Assembly (NCBI GenBank): GCA_030684575.1
Contig: JAUXVD010000008.1
Location: 620,001-684,000, forward strand
Source: Nitrospirota bacterium
Lineage (GTDB): Bacteria; Nitrospirota; Nitrospiria; Nitrospirales; Nitrospiraceae
Length of the DNA stretch: 64,000 nucleotides
Reading direction: 5' to 3'
Shown: one piece after another, positions 21,596-25,913 of the stretch
Layout: every line of letters begins with the position of its first letter
How positions within the stretch are numbered: position 1 is the stretch's first letter
Notes under the pieces: generated by a model
What the model was told of the DNA's origin: nothing
Database searches by the model: none
The model's input: the letters and a program-made list of their open reading frames with translations, nothing else
Program-made: the position numbers and the translations under genes

Positions 21596-22357
21596 ATGGC
21601 AGAGCAAAACATTATTTCTGATCTAGCTTCACTTGAGAAAGCCATTTTGCTGATGGAGTCAAAGTTCAGCAGTACACCAGATTTCTGGTGGCGAGGTCAC
21701 TCTTTGCTGGAGTGGGATCTGGTCCCAAGCGTCTATAGGTTGGGACGAGATGTCGACGAGCATAACTACGCATGGACATTTCTCCAGTATGCGCCATCTA
21801 GGTATGAACGATGCCCGGCAGAAAAGAATTGGGCTGCATGGCTATTTCTTATGCAGCACTACGGTGTACCGACCAGACTATTGGATTGGACTAAATCTGC
21901 CCTGATAGGTCTTTATTTCGCGGTTGCAGACCCTCAACATGATGAAAAGCCAGGAGCTCTATGGGGGTTGCAGCCGAGTCTTTTGAATAAATTCCAAGCT
22001 TCTATAGATGGTCTAATTCCGGTTGACGATGATCGCGTTAGGAGACTAGCCGAGGACGCTTTTGCCCACATGATGCCGAAAAAGTCGCAGCAAATAATTG
22101 CTGTTCCTACTCAGCAACGCGACGTGAGGCATCTGGTGCAGGAGTCAATGTTTACGTTGCATGGAAGTAGTCAGCCATTAAACAAGTTTGAGATCAGTAA
22201 AGAATATCTTGTTTATTGGGAAATCCCGTCCTCTTCAAAGAGTCGATTGAGATACACTTTAGACAGGATGGGGATGAACGGTGCAAACCTGTTCCCTGAT
22301 CTTGAAAACCTAGCTCGCCACGTTGGCTCCCTGGAATTCCGAAAACCCGATGTTTGA
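21596..22357 (+). CDS. FRG-domain protein
   Basis: This 253-residue protein carries the FRG domain, named after a conserved Phe/Trp-Arg-Gly. The key segment is FWWRGHSLLEWDLVPSVYR near residue 30, followed by WLFLMQHYGVPTRLLDWTKS near 82, the most conserved FRG motif. FRG proteins are of unknown biochemical function and are frequent in mobile and defence-type gene neighbourhoods. The protein has no signal peptide. Base composition is clearly more AT-rich than gltD, marking the start of an accessory island. It has no obvious operon partner, since the next element is a pseudogene. Confidence 0.85.
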   Translation: MAEQNIISDLASLEKAILLMESKFSSTPDFWWRGHSLLEWDLVPSVYRLGRDVDEHNYAWTFLQYAPSRYERCPAEKNWAAWLFLMQHYGVPTRLLDWTKSALIGLYFAVADPQHDEKPGALWGLQPSLLNKFQASIDGLIPVDDDRVRRLAEDAFAHMMPKKSQQIIAVPTQQRDVRHLVQESMFTLHGSSQPLNKFEISKEYLVYWEIPSSSKSRLRYTLDRMGMNGANLFPDLENLARHVGSLEFRKPDV

Positions 22358-22441: not shown

Positions 22442-22604
22442 ATGACGCAACAAACTTATCCCCGAAGTCCCAAAGCCCTGCTCGGTGGCATTGCCCACTT
22501 GGGGCGGTTTATCGACAAGATTCGTCTGCGGCATGCAGGCTAGATTCAGGACTACAACTACATCACTGCGGGTTCGATAAGTATCTGGTCGATTTTCTAC
22601 AGAT
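22442..22604 (+). pseudogene. broken duplicate of the DUF5069 gene 5' end
   Basis: This stretch matches the first 150 bp or so of the intact DUF5069 gene at 25476 with roughly 92 % identity by eye (for example CCCAAAGCCCTGCTCGGTGG in both). An in-frame TAG at 22541 replaces an AAG codon, and a one-base deletion in CACTGCGGGTTCG shifts the frame further on. The homology ends near 22604. It is a dead partial copy. Together with the intact gene it brackets the accessory segment. Confidence 0.88.
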
Positions 22605-22618
22605 CGAAGAAGATAAAA

Positions 22619-22635
22619 GTTCCAGGAACCATTGA
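22619..22635. repeat. 17-bp direct repeat, left copy, flanking the DUF3800 gene
   Basis: GTTCCAGGAACCATTGA, containing the palindrome GTTCC-A-GGAAC, is repeated exactly at 23691-23707. The two copies enclose the DUF3800 gene in a unit of about 1.07 kb. Confidence 0.7.
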
Positions 22636-22671
22636 CCGGATCGTTGCCCGATTAGACTTCAAGGAAGCGCG

Positions 22672-23601
22672 ATGACCAAGGTGTTCCTCTATTGTGATGA
22701 GTCTGGTGCAAAAGGTTACGCCAACCAGGACGAAACCTACCCTGGAGAGGTCGGAGTCTTCGCTGGAATCATGATTCCAGAGGAATGCATTGCCACCGTG
22801 AAGAGCACCTTTGACCAGCTTGCAGCACGCTACATGCCGACTTCTGGAAAACTTCATATCGCTGATCTTTTGACTGAACAGCAAGGGCGTATACGAAATG
22901 AATTGTTTGCAGAGATAAGACGCACCAAGTTCCCATGCTTCTGGTACGCCATTCACGTTGCGGGATTACATGCACATCACTCGGCTCAGACTGCATTGTT
23001 GAAGCGGAGCGCAGAGGAGTTCCATCTTGCGCGCGGAGGAAACGATCCACGGATCAAGCGAGGTAGTTCGCGTGAAGAACCCGCCTCCATGCATGTAGAG
23101 CTTTTTTCTGGTCTTTACTCGCATCTCGTCGCGTTCTTGGTGGAGCGTGGTCAGGAAGGCGTAGACGTCGAAATTCAAACAGATCATGTGGATACGCCGA
23201 TCATGAAACGCTTTAAGGAAGTTGCAAGCGATCTGCTAAATAACGATCCACGGGTGTCGACACCTACAGGCTTTGATACCGTTGAGAAAAAAGTTGTGGG
23301 TGGTTCAGTCACGTGTTCGGTTCAATGGCCGCCAGAGCTTGACTTTTCGCCTGTAGTGAAGAGTTTGTCTATCGGGACGGTACCTCAGAGCGATGGCCTA
23401 GTGCTTGCCGCGGATGTGTTGGCTAATAGCTTGAACCATCTATTCAAGATTAGAGGCCCAGGCACTTTATACACTCCATTGAACTGCAGAGACGCGGTTG
23501 CTAATCATCCGCTCGCAGAGTATCTCAACGCATTCAGGAGTTGGGGCTCTGGTGATCTCATTGGCGACAGAATCTACCAGCATCCGAAAGCTGGTGCTTG
23601 A
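22672..23601 (+). CDS. DUF3800-domain protein
   Basis: This 309-residue protein begins MTKVFLYCDESGAKG; the DESG motif close to the N terminus is the hallmark of DUF3800, a family with an RNase H-like fold proposed from remote similarity. A second conserved part is GLVLAADVLANSLNHLF near residue 245, where a late Asp is typical. Function is unproven. Homologues are common in prophages and genomic islands. The gene is enclosed by exact 17-bp direct repeats, is AT-richer than the host genes, and has no neighbour in the same operon. Confidence 0.82.
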   Translation: MTKVFLYCDESGAKGYANQDETYPGEVGVFAGIMIPEECIATVKSTFDQLAARYMPTSGKLHIADLLTEQQGRIRNELFAEIRRTKFPCFWYAIHVAGLHAHHSAQTALLKRSAEEFHLARGGNDPRIKRGSSREEPASMHVELFSGLYSHLVAFLVERGQEGVDVEIQTDHVDTPIMKRFKEVASDLLNNDPRVSTPTGFDTVEKKVVGGSVTCSVQWPPELDFSPVVKSLSIGTVPQSDGLVLAADVLANSLNHLFKIRGPGTLYTPLNCRDAVANHPLAEYLNAFRSWGSGDLIGDRIYQHPKAGA

Positions 23602-23657
23602 GCTTCTATTTTTGAACCAGTTACCGTTGTACTTCGCTTGTGAATCGGCGATGCTTA

Positions 23658-23697
23658 TGAGCAGAAAAAGGTTCCAGTGAGCAGAAAAAGGTTCCAG
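23658..23697. repeat. 20-bp tandem duplication
   Basis: The unit TGAGCAGAAAAAGGTTCCAG occurs twice in tandem (23658-23677 and 23678-23697). The second copy runs into the right-hand GGTTCCAGGAACC palindrome, hinting at slippage or repeated insertion at this site. Confidence 0.7.
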
Positions 23698-23707
23698 GAA
23701 CCATTGA
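23691..23707. repeat. 17-bp direct repeat, right copy, flanking the DUF3800 gene
   Basis: This is an exact copy of the 17-mer at 22619-22635. It lies about 90 bp after the DUF3800 stop codon. Confidence 0.7.
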
Positions 23708-23831
23708 TTTGCCATTTGATCGGTGACCTGCGGCAACGCGGCCTCTGGTAATGAAATAACATCCAACCATCCAATTCTGAGACTGCTTCGAGGCGGACGC
23801 TGTAAAGAGGCGTTTGAGTGACAATGAAATC

Positions 23832-24296
23832 ATGAGAGCGAATGCCGCTAACTCCTTCTCGATAGCGTGGTTATTGTTAGCACTCTTGTCGGTAGTGGCT
23901 GCTTGTAGTGATTCGATAGCATCCTGGAATCCTGAGGACAAGAGGAATATTCAGCATTTTTTTGCATCTCAGGCGGCCGATTTGGCTGCGGTGCAGTTAT
24001 CGAACTCGGGTGCATCCTATTCAATCATGTCCGGGATCGTCAAAGAGTGGGGTCGTTGCTTGACTTTGCATCTGGTTGAGCAGGGAAAACAAAGTAATCA
24101 GGCTTCTGTATCTCTCGTGGAGAAAGCAAAGGTGTCAGCCTCAGTTGTTTCTGCCGCGCACCTGCTCGAAAGCGGCTCTGACGTTCGACCCTTTCAGGAG
24201 TTGTTGGGGCATCGTGATGTCAAGCCGACGATGATCTCCATGCATGTGCTCAACCGAGATCCAGGGGGCGTTCGCAGTCCGCTGGATGGATGGTGA
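23832..24296 (+). CDS. chimeric open frame: lipoprotein-like N terminus fused to an integron-integrase C-terminal tail
   Basis: This protein of about 154 residues has two unrelated parts. Residues 1-30 are a lipoprotein signal ([16 protein letters not shown], lipobox VAAC), followed by about 75 residues of no known family. The last 45 residues ([20 protein letters not shown], then [19 protein letters not shown] and VRSPLDG) match the C-terminal end of IntI integron integrases, including the HLLE and ELLGH segments and the usual catalytic-Tyr region. Here the Tyr of the expected IYTHVLNR is replaced (ISMHVLNR), so no recombinase activity is possible. The open frame is probably a product of deletion or cassette rearrangement. 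Its start and expression are uncertain. Confidence 0.65.
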
Positions 24297-24315
24297 ACTC
24301 CCTTTCGGAGGTGGT

Positions 24316-24346
24316 GTTATGCGGACCGGCCTAAACATTGTTAGGC
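24316..24346 (+). other. attI-like integron recombination site
   Basis: The stretch contains GTTATGC (24316-24322) and ends GCCTAAACATTGTTAGGC (24329-24346), in which GTTAGGC fits the integron core GTTRRRY. It resembles from memory the end of the class 1 attI site (CCTAAAACAAAGTTAGGC). It starts 20 bp after the integrase-tail stop and precedes a one-gene cassette. The assignment rests on pattern and position. Confidence 0.5.
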
Positions 24347-24369
24347 AACTCAATCTTCGAGGAGTAAAT

Positions 24370-24642
24370 ATGCGAATTATCATTGCTGCACTTATCTCAC
24401 TGGCACTGTCTGGGTGCGCAACAAATTCAGGCATCGTTGATCTCGGTGGAGGCAACTACGTCTATGCAAAAGAGGATGCATGGGCTTACAACGGAAACGC
24501 AACGAAAGTAGAAATTTTAAAAGAGGCCGCCGCATTCTGTACGAAGCAAGGAATGCAAATGTCAGTACAAAGCTCGGATGCGAAACCTTATATGCCTTAC
24601 TCTTCGTTCGCCGGTGCTGAAGTTCAATTCAGCTGCAAGTGA
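24370..24642 (+). CDS. small lipoprotein, probable integron cassette gene
   Basis: This encodes 90 residues: a classic lipoprotein signal MRIIIAALISLALSGC with lipobox LSGC, then a short domain with GGGNYVYAKEDAWAYNGN and two later Cys that may pair. AGGAG lies 6 bp before the ATG. The gene begins 24 bp after the core-like GTTAGGC and ends 8 bp before GCCTAAC of an attC-like palindrome, exactly the layout of an integron cassette. No functional family is recognised. Confidence 0.72.
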   Translation: MRIIIAALISLALSGCATNSGIVDLGGGNYVYAKEDAWAYNGNATKVEILKEAAAFCTKQGMQMSVQSSDAKPYMPYSSFAGAEVQFSCK

Positions 24643-24644
24643 TT

Positions 24645-24718
24645 CATTTGCCTAACCCTTCGGGCAACCGAACCTGCCTCCGGCAGGCCGGTTACCGCCA
24701 ACGCTAAACCCGCAAATG
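24645..24718. repeat. attC-like imperfect palindrome
   Basis: Directly after the cassette gene, CATTTGC (24645-24651) pairs with GCAAATG (24712-24718). The inverse core GCCTAAC (24650-24656) fits RYYYAAC. An inner hairpin is AACCG-aa-CCTGCC / GGCAGG-c-CGGTT. The expected 3' core GTTRRRY is not found; GCTAAAC lies in its place. The site therefore looks degenerate or is another kind of palindrome. Confidence 0.45.
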
Positions 24719-25275
24719 TGTACGTAAGACTGGCGCTCGGCAAAGAATAGGTTCATGCAAAGAAAAGAATTTACGAACCGTTGATTGCTCCGAGCGCTGG
24801 CATGCTGTCCGCGACCTCACCGGAAGAACGGGGACCCACCGAGGCGCGGCTAGCGCGCTTGATTCATGGGGGCTCGTTACGAAACTGTGGAGACGCCGAG
24901 CGAGACGGGCGCGCGGAGCCCCGAGAGGCCGAGGCGTACTCGAAGCAGTACGTTGAGGTCGGGAGGGGCGAGCCCGCCCGCCAGTATGTATACTATGAGC
25001 ATACTGGCTTGTCGTAGCGGCGTGTCTGCAGTTGCAGTAGAGCTCTCATGAATCATGCGCGCTGGGAAAGCTGGAACTGACTGAGGTACTGCGGTCATCG
25101 ACCGCAGCCGAAGGAATTCCAGAAGGCTTCCGCTCTGCCAAGCCCGCGAGGGTCGTTCTGGGAGGTGGGGAGCAGCGGCAGCATGTCAGCGCTCGTCATT
25201 TTACGGCAGACCGTTTCTGTACATTTCTTTCGCTGATGTGTATGGTTTGTTGTGTAGCAACAGGCGGAAACTTGT
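24719..25275. other. gene-free stretch of the accessory island
   Basis: No supported gene is present. It contains a diverged copy G of the structured repeat, an inverted pair CCAGTATG / CATACTGG (near 24981-25007), and a perfect hairpin CTGCGGTC-atc-GACCGCAG (25089-25107) without a T-run. A degenerate relative of the GGTTCC...GAACC motif lies near 24765-24785. Confidence 0.5.
24907..24980. repeat. structured intergenic repeat, copy G (diverged)
   Basis: The core CCGAGGCGTACTCGAAGCAG then TACGTTGAGGTCGGG matches the centre of copy C in inverted orientation, with GTACT / AGTAC as the inner stem. Outer arms GGGCG / CGCCC are only weakly conserved, so boundaries are approximate. Confidence 0.5.
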
Positions 25276-25479
25276 ATGCGATCCAGCATCGACATCAATA
25301 AGACTCTCTTGCTGAAGGCTCTGAAAGTCACCGGCCTTAGTACCAAAGGGGCAGTTGTTGCAGAAGGTCTTCGTCTGCTTATCAAAGTGAACGGGCAGGG
25401 AAGAATTCGTCGGCTTCGAGGGAAGATCGACTTTGTAGGACATGTGTTAAACGCAAGAATGGAGGATCGAGTTCAATGA
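25276..25479 (+). CDS. VapB-family antitoxin, orphan
   Basis: This 67-residue protein has a ribbon-helix-helix-type start (MRSSIDINKTLLLKALKVTG) followed by KGAVVAEGLRLLIKV and a C-terminal RRLRGKIDF, typical of VapB antitoxins that neutralise PIN-domain VapC ribonucleases. A VapC gene would normally follow. Here the next frame, overlapping by 4 bp, is DUF5069. The antitoxin is therefore a solitary remnant or a recruited regulator. The N terminus is intact, so DNA binding may persist. Confidence 0.75.
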   Translation: MRSSIDINKTLLLKALKVTGLSTKGAVVAEGLRLLIKVNGQGRIRRLRGKIDFVGHVLNARMEDRVQ

Positions 25480-25913
25480 GTGCTCAAACCTATCCCCGTA
25501 GTCCCAAAGCCCTGCTCGGTGGCATTGCCCACTTGGGGCGGTTGATCGATAAGGTTCGTCTGCGGCATGCAGGCAAGATTCAGGACTACAACTACATCAC
25601 CGCCGGGTTCGATAAGTACCTGGTCGATTTTCTGGCGATCGATCCGAAGGCCTTTGAGCAACAAGTATTGGCCGGTGGGACGGATGAGCAATTGCTCGCC
25701 TGGGTTGTGGCGAACGGCAAGCCGCATTCGCACGAGGAGATCGCCCAGTGGTCGCAGGGGCTGCTCTCGTCCGGTCCAAAAGATGACGCCACTCGTGCCA
25801 GGCTTCAGGTTCGGCTGGATGATGTTGCCAAGAAGCGTGGCGTCGCAGTCAGCTCGCTCCCTCCTGCCTCAACATGGGTGGATGCAATCGAACTCGACGA
25901 AGGGCGATTGTAG
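25476..25913 (+). CDS. DUF5069-domain protein
   Basis: This 145-residue soluble protein matches DUF5069 (conserved segments YPRSPKALLGGIAHLGRLID near the start and AGKIQDYNY, then GFDKYLVDFLAIDP). The family is small, unstudied and widespread in environmental bacteria. The ATG overlaps the stop of the VapB-like gene by 4 bp, implying coupled translation, which is unexpected for unrelated partners and probably reflects insertion of the island upstream. A broken copy of its 5' end lies at 22442. The stop codon TAG forms the first bases of repeat copy D. Confidence 0.85.
   Translation: MSAQTYPRSPKALLGGIAHLGRLIDKVRLRHAGKIQDYNYITAGFDKYLVDFLAIDPKAFEQQVLAGGTDEQLLAWVVANGKPHSHEEIAQWSQGLLSSGPKDDATRARLQVRLDDVAKKRGVAVSSLPPASTWVDAIELDEGRL

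Follow-up and report, generated by a model that had tools for sequence, protein, structure and literature searches.

An orphan gene bounded by a REP-like junction repeat in the remains of a chromosomal integron from a Nitrospirota bacterium

Integron cassette arrays and integrase-less attC clusters hold single genes in one orientation. On Acinetobacter plasmids, genes are bounded by a series of short (28-bp) recombination sites, the pdif sites, which are Xer sites and resemble dif. In Neisseria, dRS3 repeats are used as integration sites. For REP sequences, a passage of PMC2817692 gives as the criterion a GT(A/G)G head that precedes the palindrome, and a passage of PMC8266576 has TnpA-REP cutting single-stranded DNA at CT, on the 5' or the 3' side of the REP. 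Passages of PMC3733652 describe REPs as lying near the 3' end of the ORF upstream.

The arrays of the ca. 34-bp repeat analysed here are like integron arrays in that they hold single genes in one orientation, that 15 of the 61 site-bearing loci have an attI of the same orientation, and that the locus described below is an integron relic. Unlike integron arrays, their modules have no attC hairpin between them, and the 34-bp separator is mostly without R''/R' boxes. With the RAYT (TnpA-REP)/REP system, the repeat shares the core GAAAAAGGT--CAGGAACCATTG, which recurs in the end repeats of a RAYT clade of the phylum, and, as passages of PMC3733652 describe for REPs, an intergenic position just after gene ends; unlike that system, its copies are direct and few per genome, have no GTAG head and flank none of the RAYT genes examined. 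Since the sequence and the place are REP-like while the arrangement and the head are not, the repeat resembles a REP in the first two respects only. By description, it can also be likened to dRS3 (CGTC-1 REP), which passages of PMC3733652 present as REP-class and grouped in mosaic intergenic regions. The bounded-gene layout is that of the pdif/Xer modules as well, while the repeat itself, judged by eye, is unlike dif. This arrangement is not described in the titles and abstract openings of open-licence PMC papers on integrons with RAYT or REP sequences and on Nitrospira integrons.

Repeat copies and integron remains between gltD and the DUF5069 gene

The window, the whole stretch of 64,000 nucleotides that was analysed, contains the 17-mer GTTCCAGGAACCATTGA in identical form at 22619-22635 and 23691-23707, and the two copies aligned in register have 25 of 28 bases in common (22608-22635 and 23680-23707). 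The 23-mer AAAAAGGTTCCAGGAACCATTGA was matched twice in the window with up to 3 mismatches and never in 100 shuffles, and the 12-mer core, one mismatch being allowed, five times as against 0.24 expected by chance. Using model R1, which was built from the consensus sites of the repeat family, copy 1 was located at 22604-22639 (+ strand, as all features marked + below; 32.6 bits, E 2.9e-9), where it forms the left border of the module, and copy 2 at 23678-23715 (+; 42.1 bits, E 3e-12). A partial, left-half copy (23654-23677, +; 18.5 bits, E 8.3e-5) stands in tandem with copy 2 at a period of 20, and a 20-bp tandem duplication, TGAGCAGAAAAAGGTTCCAG twice, occupies 23658-23697, 5' of the right copy. 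At 24754-24789 (+), a third copy scored 17.6, compared with a shuffle maximum of 11.9, and was not reported by R1 at E ≤ 10 in a search of the window. It was taken as a decayed copy because its ortholog at 8428 of L158, from another Nitrospira genome, scores 27.4 and aligns with it collinearly. The exact direct repeats, the duplication ahead of the right copy and a degenerate relative near 24765-24785, all noticed in the initial annotation, were thus confirmed.

Between the two good copies lies a single ORF (22672-23601, +; 309 aa), the cargo of the module. It had been annotated as a DUF3800 gene; the enclosure of one ORF holds, and the match to the family (PF12686) is weak, with 15.8 bits against a gathering cut-off of 21 (E 0.024). 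At the thresholds used, relatives of this ORF were found neither in 394 other Nitrospirota genomes nor in 99 related genomes, and plasmid, phage and viral collections gave no match, which argues against a phage or plasmid origin. Three motif matches in viral contigs, with neither a second copy nor an array, look like chance. The structure model of the product was too poor to use (mean pLDDT 37). At the same chromosomal place in other genomes the repeat is present and the content differs. A mobile element of 1.07 kb, as had been proposed, was not demonstrated, the gene being found nowhere else and the unit as a whole having no second copy. The best reading is that the orphan ORF is one gene module among those separated by the junction repeat at integron-type hot spots.

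The order in the window is gltD (the name, taken from the sequence, is our assumption), an FRG gene, a DUF5069 fragment, a repeat, the orphan ORF, a repeat, a C-terminal fragment of intI, attI, one cassette, the decayed repeat and the intact DUF5069 gene. The 5' fragment of a DUF5069 gene (22451-22607, +), which matches 25485-25642 in two ungapped blocks with 93% and 90% identity, ends exactly at the start of repeat copy 1, and the intact DUF5069 gene (25476-25913, +; Pfam E 8.2e-45) forms the conserved right flank of the locus. The C-terminal fragment of the integron integrase gene (24153-24287, +) corresponds to positions 269-313 of TIGR02249 (E 4.1e-14) and is 87% identical to the intact intI of locus L061; it is followed by an attI-like site (24317-24346, +) which ends in TAAACATTGTTAGGC and has 1 mismatch in 30 to the attI pattern, including an exact 15-mer. 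A short lipoprotein-like ORF (24370-24642, +; the ATG at 24370 was picked by eye), probably a cassette after attI, had no Pfam match, and 3' of it is an attC-like stretch (24641-24720, +), judged so by eye and not reported by a rough attC finder of low sensitivity. While intI is a fragment in the window (relic at 24153-24720), it is intact in L061 and L156 and there reads the same way as the cassettes. In related genomes, other content, including the intact integrons of L061 and L156, is flanked by the gltD side, the DUF5069 side or both. The window carries the remains of a chromosomal integron (gltD - intI fragment - attI - cassette - DUF5069), within which the orphan gene is a presumably mobile module bounded by the REP-like junction repeat.

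The attI crossover ACATTGTTAGGC at 24335-24346 and the 3' end of the repeat, CCATTGATTGCC, are alike, possibly by chance. An element with the inverted ends CGAGCGCTGGCATGCTG and CAGCATGTCAGCGCTCG is present at 24780-25200 and recurs partly near DUF5069 in several Nitrospira genomes, and a VapB-like antitoxin ORF was found at 25276-25479 (Pfam E 4.3e-8). The FRG-domain gene adjoining gltD (21596-22357) matches the candidate anti-phage family PDC-S15 (E 5e-40).

The repeat family and its arrays

The repeat belongs to a family of ca. 34 bp with the consensus GAGCTGAAAAAGGTTCCAGGAACCATTGATTGCC (GAGCNGAAAAAGGTTCCAGGAACCATTGATTGCC when derived from 36 sites), which is dispersed in Nitrospira and relatives. 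With at most 2 mismatches allowed, a 21-base core was found in 19 of the 61 genomes searched, the window's own included, and the reversed pattern gave 0 matches; a stricter pattern, searched in named records, hit five stretches of Nitrospira or Nitrospirota MAGs. Model R1 had matches in 26 of 32 genomes of the genus (E ≤ 0.1) and in 46 of 175 genomes of the family, spread over 4 of 22 genera (E ≤ 0.001), counts that take in some copies of a related GGTGTC type. The copy number in the 32 genomes ranged from 0 to 16 matches per genome (E ≤ 0.1), and thus a high, REP-like copy number was not seen. The absence of the 17-mer from other places, named in the initial annotation as evidence against its reading, was not observed. 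This recurrence, the arrangement of the copies and the junctions described below bear out the term cassette-like used there. A target-site duplication, a composite transposon and a terminal inverted repeat were rejected, as the repeat forms a dispersed family that has one consensus and keeps to one orientation.

For the following comparisons, GGTGTC (RAYT type) sites were omitted from a set of 84 sites (score ≥ 19) and a set of 74 sites (score ≥ 24), and GGTGTC and GGTGCC sites from a set of 92 sites (score ≥ 24). The loci are not a random sample, because they were fetched for their high scores. All 31 adjacent pairs at most 3 kb apart (92 sites) had the same direction, and there was no inverted pair of the BIME/REPIN kind among them. 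Repeats fell within an ORF of at least 90 aa at 25 of the 92 sites, as compared to 718 of 920 random points. The same-direction arrays often hold one gene per interval; the longest ORF was co-directional with the repeat in 20 of 27 intervals, and the stop codon of the interval ORF often lay a few tens of bases from the next repeat. The intervals contain methyltransferase, DUF1272, Schlafen/AlbA_2, trypsin-like, FA_hydroxylase, ankyrin and DUF4145 genes, a weak ParE-like match and unknowns. The largest array, in L055, has seven repeats, and a second array in the window's own genome (L052) has five. Half-repeat duplications with a period of ca. 20 bp occur in the window and in L222 and, by eye, in L053, L063 and L127.

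Junctions at the repeat edge and their relation to integrons

Only 5 of 209 homologies that reach the repeat edge (84 sites) were collinear across it, whereas 18 to 47 were collinear at each of six shifted controls. Since one-sided homologies were frequent at the control shifts as well, it is the proportion of collinear ones that is informative. In pairs of loci sharing the DNA after the repeat, similarity begins at the left edge of the repeat, and orthologous loci diverge just 5' of it. DUF1272 follows the repeat in 8 loci, the 800-bp upstream flanks of which are unrelated save for one 40-bp match in 28 pairs. At a locus with a TerC-like downstream gene (presumably so named, from its translation), three genomes have both flanks in common and differ in the length between the attI-like site and the repeat (ca. 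0, 1.3 and 3.4 kb). These observations showed that the repeat is a border: the repeat and the DNA following it are stable together, and the DNA preceding it is replaced freely. The opposite polarity was seen at one locus (L224, L231, L233 and L235).

When repeats were grouped by their downstream unit, the identity was 0.744 in the left part of the repeat and 0.886 in the right part, as compared to 0.523 and 0.593, respectively, in random groups. Some upstream junctions were near each other and not at the same base, lying ca. 20-30 bp apart (L167/L056 and L056/L144). Both a crossover in the palindromic core and plain homologous exchange between repeats are disfavoured, since the repeat keeps its left part together with the downstream unit and since shared upstream genes have left junctions ca. 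20-30 bp apart. The site is a real gene-exchange junction, and we infer an enzyme that made it.

Within 6 kb of the repeat, the attI-like sites of the 15 loci all had its orientation; the attI search with the reversed pattern found none in the 61 loci, and one further match with 8 mismatches, in L227, has the opposite orientation and overlaps a better match in the orientation of the repeat. At the other 46 site loci, no attI was found. At L220, L223, L228 and, by eye, L060, the variable DNA has the attI-like site as its left end, and fragments of intI or attI begin directly after repeats in L056, L221 and L225. GTTRR boxes, which are like the R' of attC, abut 5 of 92 repeats (control mean 0.71, maximum 2), and in L136 a whole attC, recognised by eye, stands immediately 5' of a repeat. 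The rough attC finder reported no attC next to the repeats; it was too insensitive to be decisive, giving 2 sites in L156, where several more are seen by eye, and none in L136. No folding signal was detected before the repeats (mean z 0.008 vs -0.002 and -0.129, n = 86), and the repeat was accordingly rejected as an attC. The intact integron of L156, with several cassettes, contains none of these repeats.

Possible origin of the junctions

Nitrospirota RAYT genes carry clade-specific inverted end repeats, which are GAAAAAGGTGTCAGGAACCATTGTT in one clade. Model R1 recognised end repeats of this type in L165 (both), L189, L191 and L193 (E 1e-5 to 3e-3), and the RAYT clades in L189-L217 have inverted end repeats of their own, of the types GGTGTCAGGAACC, GGGGTCGGGAGTC and GGGGACATTCT. 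No RAYT flanked by inverted copies of the GTTCC version was found in sets of 30 and 31 loci or, by the model, in 28 loci; the GTTCC copy in L167 is single and adjoins another gene. A RAYT in the same genome is not a requirement, since six genomes with strong GTTCC copies had no RAYT match. The head of the repeat consensus is GAGC, without the GT(A/G)G that the local RAYT repeats lack too. The flanking of a RAYT transposase, raised in the initial annotation, found no support, and RAYT ends are inverted whereas the repeat copies are direct; from that annotation as a whole the cassette-like character was retained, and a demonstrated mobile unit and RAYT flanking were not. A Y1_Tnp RAYT match lies in the window at 812-1135, with a different REP type, AAAAGGGGTCAGGTCTTGCAATC, ahead of it at 724. 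Small elements with inverted ends, bounded by the RAYT-clade repeat GGTGTCAGGAACCATTGTT, were seen in L150 (8085-8252), L151 (7764-7931) and L152 (7605-7755).

We tentatively prefer, at a little short of an even chance, a polar-border repeat related to the RAYT-REP system, with HUH-driven joining of repeat and gene modules at integron-type hot spots. In this reading, the repeat, a dispersed, ca. 34-bp, one-orientation Nitrospira family, is related in sequence to the end repeats of the RAYT type (HUH, single-tyrosine). An HUH enzyme of the RAYT/IS200 kind, no longer present or active from another place, may nick single-stranded DNA at the repeat's 5' foot, after which pieces consisting of the repeat and a gene may be joined to other DNA ends. 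Such nick-and-join steps would let single genes, with one repeat each, accumulate at integron-type hot spots, joining being favoured where integron cassettes are already being gained and lost, and the ORF at 22672-23601 would be one such module in the chromosomal integron remains between gltD and the DUF5069 gene. The direct orientation of all 31 pairs, the placement mostly outside ORFs, the low collinearity (5 of 209), the similarity starting at the left edge, the linkage of the left part of the repeat to the downstream unit, the divergence of orthologous loci just 5' of the repeat, the DUF1272 loci, the likeness to RAYT repeats and the attI sites at 15 of 61 loci speak for this explanation. 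Against it stand the lack of a GTTCC-flanked RAYT and of a GTAG head, the six genomes without RAYT, the direct copies, the opposite-polarity locus, the imprecise upstream junctions and the choice of loci by score.

A rather unlikely alternative is that the integron integrase moved everything and that the repeat is the relic of a conserved right-hand array border after the last attC, multiplied by tandem integrons or platform pieces while the attC sites between the remaining genes decayed. The attI at the left end of the variable DNA in L220, L223, L228 and L060, the same-orientation attI in 15 of 61 loci, the excess of abutting GTTRR boxes and the attC directly 5' of the repeat in L136 agree with it, and it explains the attI cases as well as or better than the joining of modules by an HUH enzyme. 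It does not account for the multi-repeat arrays without attI, and the 46 loci in which no attI was found, the missing folding signal and the repeat-free integron of L156 argue against it. That REP-like repeats merely sit after genes in islands rearranged by other means, the enclosed gene being there by chance, is unlikely: REPs generally lie just after gene 3' ends in passages of PMC3733652, as the repeat does here, and several unrelated REP-type repeats occur in the same islands, but passive residence predicts neither breaks coinciding with the repeat edge nor a single direction in 31 of 31 pairs.

A new cassette system, in which an unknown site-specific recombinase would act on the 34-bp repeat and link single genes in one direction, is improbable. 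Direct arrays whose intervals hold one gene, with its stop codon often near the next repeat, the palindromic core and the half-repeat duplications of ca. 20-bp period in several loci would suit such a site, whereas no recombinase came to light as a candidate, the downstream unit inherits the entire repeat, which is not split in the core, and the upstream ends are imprecise. There is similarly only a small likelihood of a non-attC cassette system in Nitrospira in which the asymmetric 34-bp repeat with its palindromic core joins 5'-tagged single genes one way by an HUH-type or unknown enzyme, feeding on integron loci.

The joining of repeat and gene modules by an HUH enzyme predicts that breaks fall at the repeat's 5' foot, which is testable on strain genomes. 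If it is true, short REP-type repeats would be borders for gene trade and not only passengers, and RAYT and integron, two systems acting on single-strand DNA, would be linked at one place. It would also provide one route to cassette-like arrays without attC and one way for a slow-growing nitrifier to collect orphan genes.
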